DNA from: an uncultured Saprospiraceae bacterium
GTDB lineage: Bacteria; Bacteroidota; Bacteroidia; Chitinophagales; Saprospiraceae
NCBI GenBank assembly: GCA_938045585.1
Contig: CALIAU010000006.1
Location: forward strand, 1 to 64,000
Reading direction: 5' to 3'
DNA length: 64,000 nucleotides
Shown here: positions 26,293 through 36,334 of the stretch, in pieces
Numbering within the stretch: position 1 is the first letter of the stretch
Layout of the letters: the number at the start of each line of letters is the position of its first letter
Notes under the pieces: generated by a model
What the model saw: the letters and a program-made list of their open reading frames with translations, nothing else
Databases searched by the model: none
Told to the model about the DNA's origin: nothing
Made by a program: the position numbers and the translations under genes

Positions 26293-27084
26293 TCATACAC
26301 CTTTAATATTTTGAACAAAGGTCTTTGAAGCCTCAGCTAATCCATGTATGCTATCCAAATGTCGAATGAACGCACTACCAATAATAGCTCCGTTCGCCTG
26401 AGCAGCAGCTTTGTCAAAACTTGCTTTATCATGAATGCCAAAACCAATTAAGCGCGGCGTATCAGGAGCAAGTTCTTCCACTCTTTTAAAATAACTAAGC
26501 TGAGTATCTTCGATATCGCTCTTAGAGCCAGTAATGCTAGAGCTGGAAATTATATACAGAAAATCGCTGCTTAATTCAGCAGCCTCGCGTATGCGTGCGT
26601 CGGAGGTTTTGGGAGTTACCAGAAAGCTAATCCCAAGATTATATTTTTCAAACTGATTTTTTAATTGACTCGCATATTCGTCTAAAGGAAGGTCAGGTAT
26701 GATCAATCCATCCACACCCGCAGCACTTGCATCCATGAAAAACTTCTCAATACCATATTGAATGAGTTGGTTGTAATATCCCATAAGGATAAGTGGGATA
26801 TCGCAAGTTTCTCTAAGCTGTGTTATTTGTTCAAACAGTAAGGATAAATGCATTCCGTTTTTCAAGGCAATTTTACTACTTGCCTGAATCGTTTCTCCAT
26901 CTGCCAAAGGATCCGAGTAGGGCATACCTATTTCCACTAGGTCTACACCCGCCTCATATAAGGCGGGAACAATTTCTAGTAAGGAATCTAATCTTGGATG
27001 TCCTGCCGTAAAGTATATGTTTAAAACTGATTCTTTCTTCTTCTTAAAAAGTGCTTGTATTCTATTCATCGGCAAATCTGTCAA
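26293..27084 (-). CDS. trpA: Tryptophan synthase alpha subunit
   Basis: LVEIGMPYSDPLADG, GVDGLIIPDLPLDE; last in trp operon. Confidence 0.97.
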   Translation of the reverse strand: MTDLPMNRIQALFKKKKESVLNIYFTAGHPRLDSLLEIVPALYEAGVDLVEIGMPYSDPLADGETIQASSKIALKNGMHLSLLFEQITQLRETCDIPLILMGYYNQLIQYGIEKFFMDASAAGVDGLIIPDLPLDEYASQLKNQFEKYNLGISFLVTPKTSDARIREAAELSSDFLYIISSSSITGSKSDIEDTQLSYFKRVEELAPDTPRLIGFGIHDKASFDKAAAQANGAIIGSAFIRHLDSIHGLAEASKTFVQNIKGV

Positions 27085-28268
27085 AAATTAAAATGTGATT
27101 TATAAGTAGGTAAATCTTTGTCTCCTCTTCCAGATACATTCACCACAACTATACTCTTAGGCTCAATATCCATTTTATCTAATATGGAAAATGCATGTGC
27201 AGTTTCTAAGGCAGGGATAATTCCTTCTGTTCGGGTAAGCATCAGAGCTGCATCTAATGCTTCTTCATCTGTTACAGGAAATACCTCGGCGCGATTACTA
27301 TCTATAAGATGGGCATGCAAGGGACCAATGCCTGGATAATCTAAACCTGCTGAAATAGAGTAGGGTTCTATTATTTGTCCATCTTCTGTTTGCATTAACA
27401 AGGTGCGTGCTCCGTGAATGATGCCCTCACTTCCCAAAATACTTGTTGCTGCAGAATGTCCAGTATCTATTCCTTTTCCAGCGGCTTCTGCTAAATAGAA
27501 TTGCACATCGGCATTATTTAAGAAGTGGTAAAAAGCGCCTGCGGCATTACTTCCTCCCCCCACACAAGCTAGTATGTAGTCAGGATAATTTCTTCCTGTT
27601 TGCTCTTCTAATTGAATTTTCATTTCAGCACTAATAACCGATTGGAATTTAGCAACCATGTCTGGATATGGGTGGGGACCTACCACAGAACCAATAATAT
27701 AATGTGTGTCTTCTGGATTATTAATCCAATCTCGGATAGCTTCATTTGTTGCATCCTTTAAAGTTTGACTACCACTTAAGGCTGGTCGAACTTCTGCACC
27801 TAACATTTTCATACGCGAAACATTAGCTGCTTGTCGTTCTATATCTATGGCACCCATATAGACAATGCAATCTATACCCATCAGTGCGCATACTGTTGCT
27901 GTAGCTACACCATGTTGCCCAGCACCCGTCTCTGCAATAATTCTCTTCTTATTGAGTTCTTTTGCTAGGAGTATCTGGCCAATGGTATTGTTTATTTTGT
28001 GTGAACCTGTATGGTTTAAGTCTTCGCGTTTTAAATATATGTTTGCATTATATTTTTTACTTAAGTTTTCTGCAAAGTAAAGGGGAGAGGGCCTCCCAAC
28101 ATAATCTTTTAGTAGTTGATCAAAATCTTTCTTGAAGCTCTCGGAATTAGAAATTCGAACATAGTTTTTTTGAAGTTCGTCAATATTGTGGTGCAACATT
28201 TCAGGAATGTAGGCACCTCCAAATTTCCCATAAAATCCGTTTTCATCAATTGTATATTTAGAAGCCAT
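27081..28268 (-). CDS. trpB: Tryptophan synthase beta subunit
   Basis: LKREDLNHTGSHKINN, AETGAGQHGVATA, CVGGGSNAAG. Confidence 0.98.
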   Translation of the reverse strand: MASKYTIDENGFYGKFGGAYIPEMLHHNIDELQKNYVRISNSESFKKDFDQLLKDYVGRPSPLYFAENLSKKYNANIYLKREDLNHTGSHKINNTIGQILLAKELNKKRIIAETGAGQHGVATATVCALMGIDCIVYMGAIDIERQAANVSRMKMLGAEVRPALSGSQTLKDATNEAIRDWINNPEDTHYIIGSVVGPHPYPDMVAKFQSVISAEMKIQLEEQTGRNYPDYILACVGGGSNAAGAFYHFLNNADVQFYLAEAAGKGIDTGHSAATSILGSEGIIHGARTLLMQTEDGQIIEPYSISAGLDYPGIGPLHAHLIDSNRAEVFPVTDEEALDAALMLTRTEGIIPALETAHAFSILDKMDIEPKSIVVVNVSGRGDKDLPTYKSHFNF

Positions 28269-28730
28269 CTATACTAATTTTTTGAGTGCTAAAATGGAAC
28301 CAAAATGCAAGCCTTCATGTACATTATTAAATTCCATAGCGTCTTCGCAGGAAGAAAGTGTAACACCAAAACTTGTTGTATATTCTTGGTAATTTTGGTA
28401 TTTGTTTTGCGCTAGGTTTTCTTCAAATGCGTCCACTGAACTTAACAGCCTTCTCTTAATATTATTAATTTCTTCCTCACTTACAACTCCTTGCGGTTTG
28501 GAACCTTTTTTATATGCCATGACCTCTTCAGGGCTCGCCTCTATGTCTACCCCAGATAATTTATTTACCAAAAGTTGCTGAGTCACTAACATATGCGCTA
28601 CATTCCAAATGATGTTGTTATTAAAACCAGTAGGAATTGTATTCAGTTGCTCAGTGCTTAATCCTTCAATCGTGTTGAGTGTGTTTTTACGTACCTGTCT
28701 TAGATAGTTTACTGTCTTTGAGGATGCCAT
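28269..28730 (-). CDS. DinB-superfamily (DUF664-like) protein inside trp operon
   Basis: Four-helix DinB-like pattern with WNVAHMLVTQQLL and C-terminal NNVHEGLHFGSI. Confidence 0.75.
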   Translation of the reverse strand: MASSKTVNYLRQVRKNTLNTIEGLSTEQLNTIPTGFNNNIIWNVAHMLVTQQLLVNKLSGVDIEASPEEVMAYKKGSKPQGVVSEEEINNIKRRLLSSVDAFEENLAQNKYQNYQEYTTSFGVTLSSCEDAMEFNNVHEGLHFGSILALKKLV

Positions 28731-29319
28731 GTTTAAATTGTTTTAGTTTATTAACGTCTTTTATTCCCGCTTCAAGTTCAAATCTACTGTTAAGATCAAC
28801 TCCTATGAATTTGGGATGTGAAATTTCATGTATAGCAGGAATATCTTCAATGGAGATACCTCCACTTAGAATAAACTCTGTTTCCAAATTATAATTATTG
28901 AGCACAGACCAATCGAATTTATTTCCACTCCCGCCATATGCCTTAGTAAACGTATCAAATAAAAAATACTTACTAGTAGCTGTAAACTGTTTACAAATGT
29001 TAAAATCAAAAGATTCATGCACACCGAATACTTTGATGATGGGTGCAATTGCTGATGCTGCGGTGCAGTAGTCAGGAGTTTCATCTCCATGAAGTTGAAT
29101 GAAGTCTAAGCGATGTTCTTGAACAATGTCCTTTAATCTAGAAATTGGACAGTTTACGAAAACACCTACCCGTTTAAAATTATCTTTTTTAAGATGTATT
29201 ACAGATTGTAAAAATCGTTTAGAAGGAGGATAAAAATTAAAACCTATCATGGCAAAATCCAATGTAGAGATATCTTCTAAATTCTCTTTTGATACAATGC
29301 CACAGACTTTTACTATCAT
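28687..29319 (-). CDS. trpF: Phosphoribosylanthranilate isomerase
   Basis: MIVKVCGI, DFIQLHGDE, ILSGGISIEDI; overlaps DinB-like gene by 44 nt. Confidence 0.93.
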   Translation of the reverse strand: MIVKVCGIVSKENLEDISTLDFAMIGFNFYPPSKRFLQSVIHLKKDNFKRVGVFVNCPISRLKDIVQEHRLDFIQLHGDETPDYCTAASAIAPIIKVFGVHESFDFNICKQFTATSKYFLFDTFTKAYGGSGNKFDWSVLNNYNLETEFILSGGISIEDIPAIHEISHPKFIGVDLNSRFELEAGIKDVNKLKQFKHGILKDSKLSKTGT

Positions 29320-30098
29320 CCTTTAACTTGATCTATAAGTTCTTTTAAAATATTGCCTGGCTCATCAGACCCCATAAAATGTTCACCAATTAAGAAGCCA
29401 TGAAACCCTCTTTCTTTTAGTTTTCTGATGGTGTCTGCATCACTAATGCCACTTTCACTTATTAGTTTTCTGTCTTTTGGTAAATCTGGATAAAGATTAT
29501 AAGAATGCATTGGGTCCGTTTTGAATTCCTTCAAATCGCGATTATTTACTCCAATGATGTCTACATTATCTGTTAGTTTTTTCAACTGTTCCAAATTGTG
29601 GATTTCCATTACGACCTCTAAGTTCAGTTCTTTTGCAAATCTAGCCAGATCGCTCAATTCACTTTTACTTAATATTTCGGCTATTAATAAAATTGCGTCA
29701 GCGCCAATGGATTTTGCTTCTAAGATTTGATACGTATCTACTATAAATTCCTTCCGTAGAATGGGGATGGAAATGTTATTTCTAGCATCTAGTATATCTT
29801 TCTCATGTCCAGCAAAGAAGTTTTTATCCGTTAGGATTGAGATACCTGCTGCTCCATTATCTTGATAATTATTAGTTATCTGTATTGGGTTTGCATCTAG
29901 ATTGATATTATGCTTTGATGGAGATTTTCGTTTAAATTCAGCAATTATTCCAGGCGATTTTTTGACTAGACTTTCAGCAAGTGAAACTGTTTCTCTTTCA
30001 AAGAATAATCGAGTAACTAATTCTGATTCTTTAATGAAGTTTTTTCGGTATTCAACTTCATTGATTTTGTGGCGTACAATGTTTTCTAAAATGTTCAT
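29316..30098 (-). CDS. trpC: Indole-3-glycerol phosphate synthase
   Basis: IIAEFKRKSPSK, ILRKEFIVDTYQI, IGVNNRDLKEF. Confidence 0.97.
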   Translation of the reverse strand: MNILENIVRHKINEVEYRKNFIKESELVTRLFFERETVSLAESLVKKSPGIIAEFKRKSPSKHNINLDANPIQITNNYQDNGAAGISILTDKNFFAGHEKDILDARNNISIPILRKEFIVDTYQILEAKSIGADAILLIAEILSKSELSDLARFAKELNLEVVMEIHNLEQLKKLTDNVDIIGVNNRDLKEFKTDPMHSYNLYPDLPKDRKLISESGISDADTIRKLKERGFHGFLIGEHFMGSDEPGNILKELIDQVKG

Positions 30099-31114
30099 TA
30101 ATTTTTTGATTGTTTTCTCGAAGCAGACATAGCAATAAGACTGTCTAAGGTCCTTTTTGCTGCACCTGACTCGATTGTTTCCTTGGATTGTTGATACAGA
30201 TGGGTTAAATCTGTATTTGGTTCATACAAAGATAAGGCTATTGCAGCATTTGCTGCTACTACTTTAACATGTTCTTGGGGACAGGTATTATTTAAAACAT
30301 TTAGAAATATCTGAGCTGCCTGTTCTATTGTGTTTCCACCAAAAATAGACGCAGGATGTAGACTATTTGTAGAGAATGAATCCGCTGAAATCATAAATTC
30401 TCCTTCCTTTTTTATAATCTTACTAGTGCCTGTAAGTGAGACCTCATCATATCCTTCCAGGTCATATATGATAGTATAGTCTTTTTCCGTGTCCTGAAAT
30501 AAGTGACTATAAAGACGTTGTAATTTTAGACTGAAGACACCTACAGATTGTTTCTTTGGTTGGACAGGATTTACCAAAGGACCTAACATATTGAAAAAGG
30601 TTTTAACACCCATTTGTCGTCTAATTGGAGCTACAAATTTCATAGCTGGATGAAATAAGGGAGCATGTAAAAAACATAGATTGCAATTATCTAATTCTCT
30701 CTGAAGTTCTGATCCATCATTTGTAAAAACATATCCTAAGTGCTCTAATACATTAGAGGAACCACAAACAGAAGAGACACCATAATTTCCATGCTTAGTA
30801 ACCTTAATTCCCATGGACGCTAAGACAAAGGAAGTAAGTGTGGATATGTTAAAGGTGTTTTTTCCATCACCACCAGTACCACATAAGTCTATAGAGTCTG
30901 AATTATCAAGTATGGGTCTTTTTGCAAGATCTAGCAGTGCTTCTCTAAACCCCGCAAGTTCTTCTACTGTGATGGAACGCATTTGGAAAACACTTATAAA
31001 ACTTGCTACTTGAAATTCGTTGTATTTGCCATCTGATATATTCTTGAGTATTTCCTTTGCTTCAGATTTGCTTAACTTCTTGTGTTTAAACAAATGATTT
31101 AGTATCTCTTTCAT
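30098..31114 (-). CDS. trpD: Anthranilate phosphoribosyltransferase
   Basis: DLCGTGGDGKNTFNIST, KHGNYGVSSVCGSSNVLE. Confidence 0.97.
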   Translation of the reverse strand: MKEILNHLFKHKKLSKSEAKEILKNISDGKYNEFQVASFISVFQMRSITVEELAGFREALLDLAKRPILDNSDSIDLCGTGGDGKNTFNISTLTSFVLASMGIKVTKHGNYGVSSVCGSSNVLEHLGYVFTNDGSELQRELDNCNLCFLHAPLFHPAMKFVAPIRRQMGVKTFFNMLGPLVNPVQPKKQSVGVFSLKLQRLYSHLFQDTEKDYTIIYDLEGYDEVSLTGTSKIIKKEGEFMISADSFSTNSLHPASIFGGNTIEQAAQIFLNVLNNTCPQEHVKVVAANAAIALSLYEPNTDLTHLYQQSKETIESGAAKRTLDSLIAMSASRKQSKN

Positions 31115-31116
31115 CT

Positions 31117-31689
31117 TTACAGGCTTAAAAAGTTTTTGATCATTGTTCGTCCGTCCGGTGTAAGTATAGATTCAGGGTGAAATTGTACCCCGTATATTTC
31201 AAATTTCTTGTGATCAGCTGACATGATTTCTTGATTGGAATCATAGCTCGTAACTTGTAGATCTTTGCTCAGACTATCCTTGTCTATTACCCAAGAATGG
31301 TATCTACCTGCTACAAACTCTTGCTCAATATCCTTAAAAATTACTGATGAACTTTCAGTTTGTTTCATGGTAGTCGCCATACCATGAAACACTCTGTCTA
31401 GATTCTTTAAGGTACAGTTATACACTTCACCTATTGCTTGCAAACCCAAACAGACTCCAAATATTTTCTTTGTTGGACCATATGTTTTGATGAGATCTTT
31501 TAGAATCCCTGCTTCATCAGGTAGGCCAGGGCCAGGAGACAAGATGATTGATTCATATTTATCGATATCTGCTAATGCAATGTCTGTATTCCTAAAGACT
31601 TCTATTTTTTGATCCAATATTTCCTCAACAATCTGAACCAGGTTGTAGGTAAAGGAGTCGTAATTGTCTAGTATAAGTACTTCTTTCAT
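31117..31689 (-). CDS. trpG: Anthranilate synthase component II (glutamine amidotransferase)
   Basis: LDNYDSFTYNLVQ, SPGPGLPDEAG, GVCLGLQAIGE, GVQFHPESILTPDG. Confidence 0.97.
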   Translation of the reverse strand: MKEVLILDNYDSFTYNLVQIVEEILDQKIEVFRNTDIALADIDKYESIILSPGPGLPDEAGILKDLIKTYGPTKKIFGVCLGLQAIGEVYNCTLKNLDRVFHGMATTMKQTESSSVIFKDIEQEFVAGRYHSWVIDKDSLSKDLQVTSYDSNQEIMSADHKKFEIYGVQFHPESILTPDGRTMIKNFLSL

Positions 31690-31691
31690 AA

Positions 31692-33071
31692 TTACTTTTC
31701 TGCATTTTGAAGGGCCTTCGTGAGTGCTCCCAATTTATTTTTTACCTCTTGTAATTCACTTTCTTCTTTAGAGTCAATTACTATCCCAGCACCTGCTTGC
31801 CAATGCAGGGTATTCTGTGTGCTTAAAAAGGAACGAATGATGATAGCATGGTTTATCTCTCCTTCAAATGAAATTAAACCAATAGCACCACCATAGAATC
31901 CGCGTTTATGTGGTTCTAGTGTATCAATTATTTCCATAGCTCTGTACTTAGGCGCGCCACTTAGTGTGCCTGCTGGGAAAGTGTCAGCAAAAATTTGAAA
32001 ATTGTTTGCGCCCGGATTTACCTCTCCTTTTACCTTTGATGTTAGGTGCATTACATGGCTAAATCGCTGTATTTCTTTATAACTTTCAACACGGACTTGG
32101 GTACAGTTGCGACTTAGGTCATTTCTTGCCAAATCTACAAGCATCACATGCTCTGCATTTTCTTTGGGGTCATCAATAAGCTGCTGTGCATACCGAATGT
32201 CTTCTTCCTCATTTCCTGTTTTTGGAACCGTTCCTGCTATAGGGTGAATCTCAGCTTTATTGTCTTGGATAATGATTTGAGCTTCTGGGGATGAACCAAA
32301 TAGTCTATAGTATGAATAGTCAAAGTAAAATAGGTAAGGACTTGGGTTTACTGATCGTAATGACCTATATACATTGAACTCATCTCCAGTGAATTTTTGC
32401 ATATAACGTCGAGAAAGAACTACTTGAAAGACATCACCTCTTTGGCAATGCTTTTTTGCCTGTGTAACAGTAGCCATATATTCCTCATCTGTGGAAGTAG
32501 AATCTGTTTTGCCTATGAGCTTAAAGCCAAATTCACTATAATCTTGGCGATAAAGGATTTGTTCTATTGCATCCATTGAACTTGCTTCTCCTTCAGGAAT
32601 ATTTTCAAGTATAGTAAGTGTTTCGTAGAAATGGTCAAAGGCTATTACATACCGATAGAGATCATACTTAAGACTAGGCGTTTCTACATGTGATTCAGAA
32701 TGCAAATGGATTGTTTCAAAATATTGAATAGAATCATAATTGCTATAGCCAAACAAGCCATTAAATGAAGCTTTAATACTGGAGTCTGAGAATTCTATTG
32801 AAGATTGAAAATCCTGTATTTGTTTTGAAATGTTGCCTTTTAGCGAAGTTTCAGTTTTTTTATTTCCCGCATAACTACTAAAGCTATTCTGATGCACTTG
32901 AAGACCAGCAATCGGATCAAAACAAATAAAAGAATGACTGTTCTCCATACTTGAATAGTCAGAACTCTCTAATAATAATACTTGAGAATATTGCTCTCTT
33001 ATTTTTAGGAATAAACCCACAGGAGTAAAGAGGTCAGCTAAATATTCTTTTGTTATCGTATGTATTTTCAT
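31692..33071 (-). CDS. trpE: Anthranilate synthase component I
   Basis: Chorismate-binding domain: IAGTVPKTGNEEED, MLVDLARNDLSR, GTLSGAPKYRAMEIID. Confidence 0.97.
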   Translation of the reverse strand: MKIHTITKEYLADLFTPVGLFLKIREQYSQVLLLESSDYSSMENSHSFICFDPIAGLQVHQNSFSSYAGNKKTETSLKGNISKQIQDFQSSIEFSDSSIKASFNGLFGYSNYDSIQYFETIHLHSESHVETPSLKYDLYRYVIAFDHFYETLTILENIPEGEASSMDAIEQILYRQDYSEFGFKLIGKTDSTSTDEEYMATVTQAKKHCQRGDVFQVVLSRRYMQKFTGDEFNVYRSLRSVNPSPYLFYFDYSYYRLFGSSPEAQIIIQDNKAEIHPIAGTVPKTGNEEEDIRYAQQLIDDPKENAEHVMLVDLARNDLSRNCTQVRVESYKEIQRFSHVMHLTSKVKGEVNPGANNFQIFADTFPAGTLSGAPKYRAMEIIDTLEPHKRGFYGGAIGLISFEGEINHAIIIRSFLSTQNTLHWQAGAGIVIDSKEESELQEVKNKLGALTKALQNAEK

Positions 33072-33081
33072 GATATTAGTC

Positions 33082-33120
33082 TAAAATAAAAAGCGGCTTG
33101 TTGAAGTTCAACAAGCCGCT
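33082..33120 (-). terminator. trp attenuator terminator (3:4 hairpin + U-rich tract)
   Basis: Minus strand AGCGGCTTGTTGAA-C-TTCAACAAGCCGCT-TTTTATTTT, perfect 14-bp arms; 11 nt before trpE ATG. Confidence 0.9.
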
Positions 33121-33150
33121 GTATATGTTATGTGCACACAGAAATTGCTT

Positions 33151-33210
33151 CTAAACTTCTTTTAGAGTTTTAGAAAGCCACCACCATGTATTATTTGTAT
33201 TCAAAATCAT
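33151..33210 (-). CDS. trpL: trp leader peptide MILNTNNTWWWLSKTLKEV (three consecutive Trp codons)
   Basis: ATG ATT TTG AAT ACA AAT AAT ACA TGG TGG TGG CTT TCT AAA ACT CTA AAA GAA GTT TAG, directly upstream of attenuator and trpE. Confidence 0.9.
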   Translation of the reverse strand: MILNTNNTWWWLSKTLKEV

Positions 33211-33214
33211 GTGT

Positions 33215-33222
33215 CAAATATA
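33215..33222 (-). promoter_or_regulatory. -7 element TATATTTG, likely trp operon promoter
   Basis: Matches TAnnTTTG 4 nt upstream of leader ATG; no clear -33 TTTG found. Confidence 0.5.
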
Positions 33223-33274: not shown

Positions 33275-36200
33275 TTAATCGTTGTTCTTTTTTGGAAAGC
33301 CAGGGAGTTTATTTTTTAGTTTGTCTTTTAATTTGTCTAATTCTCCCGTTTGATCTCCAAGCACATCTTTTACCTTATCTTCTAATTTTGTTGCAAGTGT
33401 GTCTTTTACGACTGCGACTACCTTTGTTTTAACTTTAGCTTTGATGGTGTCTTTTGCAACTTGGACAGCCTTGTCTGCCTTTTTTTCAGCCTGGGCAATG
33501 AGCGAATCGCGTTTACTTTCAATGATATGCGTTACAGAGTCCTTCACAACATTTATTTTTTCATTGGCTTTATCCTGATATTCTCTTTTTTTGTCTTCTA
33601 TGACATTTGTTACGATGTCTTTAGTTGTTTCTGTCAAACTTTTACCTCCTGCACCTGTAGGTACAACTTTGAACTTTGGATTTTTAATGGTTCCAGTAAT
33701 ACTAACGTCTAGATAGATGAAATCTCCAACATCAAGATTTACGCCTAATTTGCCAGCTTCCTTTTCTAAGAAGCCAATACCTGCATCACTGAGGGTTCCT
33801 ACTGTAGAGTTATTAAATCTACTTCTTGGGATTTCTAATTGAGCGACATAGTCGATATCAGAGTCAAATTTTTGAGTACCTCCAATGCGCATTTTGATAT
33901 CATCCATCATATAGTCATGCGCTTTTAGAACTACTCCGCCGTCTGCTATTTCAAACCAATTCTTGGTGTTTTCAAGATTGATTTGTTTTAGCTTTTCAAC
34001 ACCCAGTTTATTAGCCAGGTCGGTAACAGGAGTGTAACCAGATAATTTACTATTTAGAGTTTCTAAAAATCCAGAAGCAGAAATCGTATTGTAATCCAGT
34101 TCAAAACCATTTTTAAGATTGCCAGACATAACAAGGGTAGAGTTGAATACACCTTCAATAAATTCTGCTACAGGGGCCATAACTCTAAAAGATGCGAGAT
34201 TTTTAAAAGTTTCTTGAAAGTTGAATTTACTAAGCTCATATTTAAAACTAAATGCAGGGCTTTCGCTCACACTATCATAAAATCCTTCAAAATTGATATC
34301 GCCACCCATTGCCTTGGAAGTACTGTTAACTAAACTGGCAATACCATTTTTTACTAAGAGATCGGAATTGAAACTCTCTATTTTAGTATTACTATATAAG
34401 ACCTCATCCGCCTTGATGTCCATGTCGATATTGTAAAGTTGCGGAATACGCAAGGCTTCAGATTTTGCAGATTCATCTTCAGTAATAAATTTGTTAACAT
34501 CAAACTTCTTAGTATATATATCCAAGTTCCCATACAATGAATCATTCTTGCTTACATGATTATAAGCATTTCTTAAATTCCCCTTTGCCTGTATACTTGA
34601 TCCTTCGACTAGAACATTAGATTTTTGAATTTCTAGATTATTAGCAGCTAAAATTCCCTCTGCCTGAAAGTTTTTGATATCGTAACCTAAGTATTGTATT
34701 GTTTTAACCTCACTTGTAAATTTAAGCTTACTCTTATCAATTAAGTTTTGATCAATTTCAGTTGGAGAACTGGTAGTGCTCTTATCATCTGCATGCATTA
34801 ACTCGTCAAGATCTAATAGAGTTGATGTATGGGTAATATGCCCTGAAATATTGTTCTTTGAAGTTAGAATAGCTAGAGGGTTTTTTACATTTCCACTAAT
34901 AGTATAATCACTTGAACCCATTTTTCCTTCAAGAGTATTGACGTTAAGATTTTGCGGTGTAGAGTTAATATTAAAGTTGGAAAGAACAAGATCATTTCCT
35001 TCTTTGTAATCCACAGTCAGTCCATCAGACTGAAGTGTCATATCAAAGGTTAATGCTTCGTAGTTTTCTGTCTCAATATCAGATTGTCTTCCTTTAAAAG
35101 TGAGATCAGATAAAACAGAACCTGTCATTGAATTTACGTTCTCTATAGGAAGGATCTCGCTAAGCTTATTTAAGTTGAGATTACCATTGAGGACAACATC
35201 ATAGAGAGGATCTGTCATCACATTGGAATATTTAAATCTCCCATCAATTTCCTCTCCAGCTATATTCATTTTTAGATTATCAAGATTAATTTCTAAATCA
35301 TCCCAGTTTTTATCGTCTGCCCGTATGCTTAGGTCAGTATAAATATTTTGAATGGGTTCAGAAAAGTTTGCGTTTTTCACATAGCCATTTTCCACTATGA
35401 TCTTACTGTTAATCATTGGCAGAGTAGTATCTGAATACCTTCCTTTAATTTTCGCTTCAATAGAGGCATTTCCTTTGGTATCCAATCCAGCTAAATCCTT
35501 TTTTAAGTCCAAGGGTATAATGGAAAGGAAATCTCCAAATTCCCCCTTGTCAGAAGTAATTTCTAAATCCATGTTTATGTCCTCATCTTTTAATTGGACA
35601 TAGCCCTCCGTATTTATTTTTAGATTTTCTAGACGGATGTCATTGTTTGAAATTGTATAGCTATTTGTTGTATTGTCAATTTCTAAATCGAGGCTTCCTT
35701 TCGTCTGAACCTTATTTAGATATGGAAAATTATTTTTGCTAATACTTAATGATTGAATATCTGATTCAGTACTTAGTTTGAATACATCTTGGGTAAAATC
35801 GCCCTTTCCGGTGTGTCTAATGCCCTGAGCCGAAATTTCAGTGTCATTTTGACGATCTTGAAATAGTAGATTTACATCTTGTAACGAATAATTTTTTAAT
35901 TCTAAGGTATAAGCCGAACTTTCATCTGTTTCAGTTCTATTCCAAATCTCGTAATTGTAATTACCTGTTTTGTCTACTATTACATGTACATCTCCTTCTT
36001 CGAGAGATATTGAATTTATTTTATACGGATTTTCTTCTTGAATAAAAGACATAAAATCCATATCCACAACCAAACGATCTGCTTTTAATAAGAGTCCATT
36101 GTCAAATGATGCATCATTATGTACCTCGGGAGAATGAATAGTAATAGCTACGTCCGGAAAGGATTTAATAAAAGAAAGGTCTAGGTCCGCAAAGTCCACT

Positions 36201-36334
36201 TCCGCATTTAAATTCTTATTTAATGCGTCTTTAACAGCGCCTACCAGTTCGCCTTTGTATACAAAGGGCAGGAGTATTAATGCTACTACCAGAGCAAATA
36301 TAAATAAGAGCACTATTCGTAATATTTTTTTCAT
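33275..36334 (-). CDS. AsmA-family protein
   Basis: N-terminal TM, AsmA-like opening (NKNLNAEVDFADLDLSFIKSFPDVAITI), repeated strand architecture, charged coiled C-terminus. Confidence 0.85.
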   Translation of the reverse strand: MKKILRIVLLFIFALVVALILLPFVYKGELVGAVKDALNKNLNAEVDFADLDLSFIKSFPDVAITIHSPEVHNDASFDNGLLLKADRLVVDMDFMSFIQEENPYKINSISLEEGDVHVIVDKTGNYNYEIWNRTETDESSAYTLELKNYSLQDVNLLFQDRQNDTEISAQGIRHTGKGDFTQDVFKLSTESDIQSLSISKNNFPYLNKVQTKGSLDLEIDNTTNSYTISNNDIRLENLKINTEGYVQLKDEDINMDLEITSDKGEFGDFLSIIPLDLKKDLAGLDTKGNASIEAKIKGRYSDTTLPMINSKIIVENGYVKNANFSEPIQNIYTDLSIRADDKNWDDLEINLDNLKMNIAGEEIDGRFKYSNVMTDPLYDVVLNGNLNLNKLSEILPIENVNSMTGSVLSDLTFKGRQSDIETENYEALTFDMTLQSDGLTVDYKEGNDLVLSNFNINSTPQNLNVNTLEGKMGSSDYTISGNVKNPLAILTSKNNISGHITHTSTLLDLDELMHADDKSTTSSPTEIDQNLIDKSKLKFTSEVKTIQYLGYDIKNFQAEGILAANNLEIQKSNVLVEGSSIQAKGNLRNAYNHVSKNDSLYGNLDIYTKKFDVNKFITEDESAKSEALRIPQLYNIDMDIKADEVLYSNTKIESFNSDLLVKNGIASLVNSTSKAMGGDINFEGFYDSVSESPAFSFKYELSKFNFQETFKNLASFRVMAPVAEFIEGVFNSTLVMSGNLKNGFELDYNTISASGFLETLNSKLSGYTPVTDLANKLGVEKLKQINLENTKNWFEIADGGVVLKAHDYMMDDIKMRIGGTQKFDSDIDYVAQLEIPRSRFNNSTVGTLSDAGIGFLEKEAGKLGVNLDVGDFIYLDVSITGTIKNPKFKVVPTGAGGKSLTETTKDIVTNVIEDKKREYQDKANEKINVVKDSVTHIIESKRDSLIAQAEKKADKAVQVAKDTIKAKVKTKVVAVVKDTLATKLEDKVKDVLGDQTGELDKLKDKLKNKLPGFPKKNND

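Follow-up and report, generated by a model that had tools for sequence, protein, structure and literature searches.

The trp operon of this uncultured Saprospiraceae bacterium is very probably controlled by a ribosome-mediated transcription attenuator, judging by the sequence of its leader and by models of how the RNA folds. The element lies on the minus strand upstream of trpE, in the window that we analysed (a stretch of DNA of 64,000 nucleotides). It combines a short ORF carrying three tandem Trp codons with an intrinsic terminator and a set of mutually exclusive helices (Table 1). Comparable leaders are conserved in related genomes, and the alternative helices covary.

Organisation of the trp leader

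The leader ORF has 19 codons, from an ATG at 33210 to a TAG stop (33153-33151) that falls inside region 2, and its ATG is 139 nt upstream of trpE. The preliminary description had proposed this ORF, its three TGG codons, the position of its stop and the pairing of region 1 with 33157-33150; reading the sequence gave the same coordinates, and folding returned the same 1:2 helix. Duplex folding also reproduced the proposed antiterminator between regions 2 and 3, which has 13 pairs with one bulged G and two G.U pairs (-11.2 kcal/mol). Region 3 runs from the apical part of the 5' arm of the terminator through the loop to the second nucleotide of the 3' arm. The terminator had been described as a perfect stem of 14 bp, but folding gives 13 bp and a loop of 3 nt, as 14 bp would leave a loop of a single nucleotide. 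Energy-based folding, a check proposed at that stage, showed that the leader is more stable than its dinucleotide shuffles (z = -4.4, with 0 of 200 as good), and gave z = -7.5 for the terminator.

The operon downstream is complete, in the order trpEGDCF-(DinB)-BA. The score of trpE sits under the curated cut-off of its NCBIfam model. A gene of the DinB superfamily is located between trpF and trpB, within the operon, and overlaps the end of trpF.

Table 1. Features of the trp leader and operon in the window.
Feature	Positions	Strand	Basis or remark
-7 promoter box of Bacteroidota type, TATATTTG (TAnnTTTG)	33215..33222	-	Sequence; transcription start predicted
Leader peptide ORF, MILNTNNTWWWLSKTLKEV then stop	33151..33210	-	Sequence; orthologous leaders in relatives
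(TGG)3, three tandem Trp codons, proposed sensor	33178..33186	-	Sequence
Region 1, TCTAAAACT	33166..33174	-	Fold; partner AGTTTAGA at 33157-33150
Region 2, GAAGTTTAGAAGC	33147..33159	-	Partner of either region 1 or region 3; antiterminator pairing covaries
Region 3, GCTTGTTGAACTTC, antiterminator partner	33103..33116	-	Duplex folding
Intrinsic terminator, stem 33120-33092 and tail TTTTATTTT	33083..33120	-	Folding
trpE (anthranilate synthase component I)	31692..33071	-	NCBIfam TIGR00564, E 2.8e-129, 432 bits
Operon remainder after trpE	26293..31689	-	NCBIfam and Pfam
trpG	31117-31689	-	NCBIfam/Pfam
trpD	30098-31114	-	NCBIfam/Pfam
trpC	29316-30098	-	NCBIfam/Pfam
trpF	28687-29319	-	NCBIfam/Pfam
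DinB-family gene (PF12867)	28269-28730	-	NCBIfam/Pfam
trpB	27081-28268	-	NCBIfam/Pfam
trpA	26293-27084	-	NCBIfam/Pfam

Predicted mechanism

From these parts we infer a start site, a ribosome stall, the kinetics that follow, a termination event, and a response to Trp. Transcription would start beside the leader ATG. With little charged Trp-tRNA, the ribosome would stall on the three Trp codons and cover region 1. Region 2 would then pair with the emerging region 3 before the 3' arm of the terminator is made, and with the antiterminator formed RNA polymerase would read through into trpE. When Trp-tRNA is ample, the ribosome would reach the stop codon and cover region 2, and the terminator would form. 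Without translation, the 1:2 helix would form, and the terminator too.

We modelled these states by constrained folding of the RNA present before the 3' arm of the terminator emerges, assuming a ribosome footprint of 15 nt on each side of the P-site. A modelled ribosome at W9, W10 or W11 gives 12.5 expected antiterminator pairs, and one at the stop codon gives none. In the absence of a ribosome the 1:2 helix prevails, with 7.8 pairs against 2.0 for the antiterminator. These predictions follow the switch expected of the overlapping 1:2, 2:3 and 3:4 helices that had been interpreted as an attenuator. In the complete RNA at equilibrium the terminator is preferred in every case, and the switch would therefore need kinetic trapping, as in classical attenuators.

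Conservation across relatives

We searched for TrpE in the window's own genome and in 60 relatives, and retained 36 genomes with an orthologous trpE (including two with fragmentary ones). Two genomes, G028 and G010, were left out because the contig or the match stops short of the leader. All 34 readable genomes of the GTDB order, the window's included, have a leader that contains two or more Trp codons in a row and is followed by a terminator; one of these leaders, L017, was counted with a TTG start.

The covariance model R1, built from 33 leaders of the order, the window's own among them, has one strong match in the 4.3-Mb genome, which is the window leader (96 bits; the next full-length match has 31 bits). 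At an E-value of 0.001 it has matches in 187 of 299 genomes from the order; false matches, such as those to a terminator alone, are part of this number. Beyond the order, it also detects leaders of trpE in further families of the class. Outside the class, 8 of the 10 inspected matches precede trp genes, namely trpE in seven cases (protein identity to the window's TrpE 35-39%) and a trpB-like gene in one, and all eight leaders have three or four tandem Trp codons; the matches L107 and L113 have no trp genes downstream. Across 72 distinct leaders, counted only if they had two consecutive TGG codons, the number of consecutive Trp codons is exactly three in 64, four in 3, and two in 5. The comparison of trpE leaders suggested in the preliminary description thus shows Trp codons kept in frame across the order, the class, and beyond. 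Not all of the phylum shares the element, since the upstream sequence read at L003 and L004, two of the three loci from a TrpE contig scan, contains no Trp leader.

Some leaders stand in other genetic contexts. The leader of L114 (genome G690, outside the class), MKIQLSNNNNWWWWYF, has four Trp codons and a terminator, and precedes a TrpB-like gene that is only 32% identical to the window's TrpB. At L126 (G394, same class) a leader with three Trp codons and a terminator is ahead of a trpD-trpF unit. Leaders with His codons—HHIHHH, HIHHHH and HHHHH in L117, L118 and L121 (G035, G278 and G032), respectively—are followed by a terminator and by hisG, which we identified by reading the translated sequence. 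They use both CAT and CAC, and their layout matches that of the trp leader. HisG (PF01634) was not found in the window's own genome, whose completeness is rated at 98%; the search was positive in 13 of 14 control genomes. This points to a possible His auxotrophy or a gap in the assembly.

Codons or RNA motif

The Trp run could also be read as an RNA element: a plain terminator with a conserved UGGUGG motif bound by a protein or ligand, TRAP-like or as a riboswitch, in which translation would be irrelevant. The window aligns end to end (33174-33082), at 31.2 bits, with the trpB motif of Firmicutes and Fusobacteria (RF04312), which its authors present as a riboswitch candidate (PMC11109978). As described there, that motif has a hairpin whose right shoulder can serve as antiterminator, followed by a terminator, which is also the arrangement in the window. 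Yet the match is below the cut-off of 59 bits, and the motif occurs in other phyla; we rejected this identity. The passages of PMC11109978 consulted here describe no leader peptide for RF04312; the motif might itself be a Trp-leader attenuator.

Other observations count against a bound motif. The Trp codons are in frame with the start and stop codons, and where relatives interrupt the run they do so by whole codons (WRWW, WWLW, WAWWW). Together with the His leaders, which occupy the same place before hisG and use both of their codons, these frame-keeping variants argue for codons over an RNA motif. The TRAP gene (mtrB, PF02081) was not found in the genome, with a positive control in B. subtilis. 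We thus consider a bound UGGUGG motif very unlikely. The T-box identity was rejected as well, as the covariance model RF00230 has no match in the genome and its controls were positive. The earlier view that neither TRAP nor T-box logic is needed agrees with these searches. The gene of TrpR (PF01371) was not found in the genome either, whereas the E. coli control was positive.

Covariation of the alternative helices

The alignment of the leaders folds with RNAalifold into the terminator only, because the competing helices are mutually exclusive. We therefore used an alignment-free swap test, which pairs region 2 in silico with the terminators of all other species (43 leaders after clustering at 75% identity). 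Pairs of region 2 with its own terminator are 5.1 kcal/mol more stable than the means of rows and columns predict (z = -10.5, n = 43). For the window, no terminator suits region 2 better than its own (rank 1 of 43). The test gives z = -5.9 for the 1:2 helix and z = -10.2 for the outer stem around the Trp codons, which is the stem in Rfam's model. All these z-values are upper bounds, as relatedness remains in the permutation, and the control combinations, made under the same relatedness, give the scale (|z| of 2.0-2.4). Region 2 against the 5' arm of the terminator alone does not stand out (z = -1.5); since this arm hardly varies, the value does not count against the pairing.

Column counts in alignment A1 can be compared with the same structure slid by 1-3 columns. 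For the antiterminator, 73% of the cells are paired, against at most 49% when slid, and the covariation score is 0.236, against at most 0.116; the structure was taken from the same alignment, which somewhat favours it. Double changes affect 11 of 17 pairs, with no excess over shuffles. In the terminator, relatives show double changes at 10 of the 12 consensus pairs. Covariation, for which compensatory changes had been proposed as a check, is thus found in the 1:2, antiterminator and terminator helices.

These data also bear on whether the leader peptide acts mainly on the translation of trpE, by re-initiation or through Rho, instead of on intrinsic termination. Only 20 nt separate the end of the terminator stem from the trpE ATG, which would suit such a role. 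Nevertheless, nearly every relative has a strong stem with a T tract, and the antiterminator covaries with the terminator, making this explanation highly improbable. Finally, a chance short ORF next to a terminator of the upstream AsmA-like gene (33275-36334, same strand, ending 64 nt ahead of the leader ATG) is the least credible reading and can practically be set aside: a short ORF that has three tandem Trp codons and a terminator close by is present at one place in the window and at none in 200 simulated Markov-1 sequences of 64 kb (genome-wide chance was gauged from the covariance model scan and these simulated windows), and conservation with covariation across the order and beyond contradicts it.

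A possibly leaderless leader mRNA

The attenuator may have a further peculiarity at its 5' end. Most of the 72 distinct leaders have a comparable -7 box, of the consensus TAnnTTTG named in PMC9723704, at 4-27 nt ahead of the leader ATG. The gap is 4 nt in the window, L006, L007 and L034, and 5 nt in L018; it is about 16-27 nt in most of the remaining leaders with a recognisable box. The short gaps of L081 and L068 are probably artefacts, because the most upstream ATG was chosen and an internal ATG lies at the usual distance. If transcription starts at the usual distance from the -7 box, the leader mRNA of the window may be leaderless. Tentatively, and at a likelihood that we place a little short of even, the attenuator of the window's genus and of a few relatives runs from a leaderless mRNA, with the peptide starting at or next to the first transcribed base. 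The regulating ribosome would then have to load as a leaderless initiation complex, in contrast with most relatives, where the 5' UTR would span roughly 10-20 nt. In F. psychrophilum 5.5% of the mRNAs are leaderless (PMC9723704), and in B. thetaiotaomicron about 3.7% of the 5' UTRs are shorter than 10 nt (PMC7366714). The leaderless state being uncommon, this would be a mildly unusual feature.

Relation to known trp leaders

The leader in the trp attenuator of E. coli (trpL) carries two tandem Trp codons and has its stop codon in region 2; the 1:2, 2:3 and 3:4 helices exclude one another, and the terminator has a U-tract. The window shares this layout, but it has three Trp codons instead of two, and its genome has no detectable TrpR. 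Its antiterminator crosses the terminator loop into the 3' arm, and its leader is possibly leaderless.

Among the closest described systems is Bacteroid-trp (RF01692), which was reported from Bacteroidetes as an RNA with a probable cis-regulatory, non-switch role (Weinberg et al. 2010, PMC2864571) and is labelled by Rfam as the Bacteroidete tryptophan peptide leader RNA. It has been likened to the trp leader of E. coli and is also conserved ahead of the trp operon of F. psychrophilum (PMC6414381, 2019), a species in which there are strong clues for leader-peptide attenuation ahead of amino-acid operons (PMC9723704). The position upstream of trp genes in Bacteroidetes, the leader with Trp codons, and the conserved GGCUUGU start of the terminator are all present in the window. 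Furthermore, three of the trpE leaders that R1, built only from the window's order, detects in the other families pass the Rfam cut-off. However, the RF01692 model breaks off within the terminator and includes the outer stem but not the 2:3 antiterminator. In the window this outer stem, around the Trp codons, has only -4.2 kcal/mol (rank 27 of 43), a weakness that counts against the attenuator reading.

With RF01692 the window reaches 29.8 bits, below the gathering cut-off of 49 bits, and we therefore class it as a divergent relative, not as a member by score. The cut-off is missed by 13 of the 14 order-level loci tested; L008, from the same GTDB family as the window, just passes it (49.2 bits). 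Among loci from other families of the class, three of six are easily above it.

This kind of leader is thus already known in Bacteroidetes, and the novelty of the window is only that of a divergent member. Most members in the window's order escape Rfam's Bacteroid-trp model. Our analysis also provides covariation evidence for the antiterminator, the helix by which such leaders are true attenuators. For biology at large, a textbook mechanism is confirmed, not changed. For the phylum, these results suggest that leader-peptide attenuation is a widespread mechanism of trp control.
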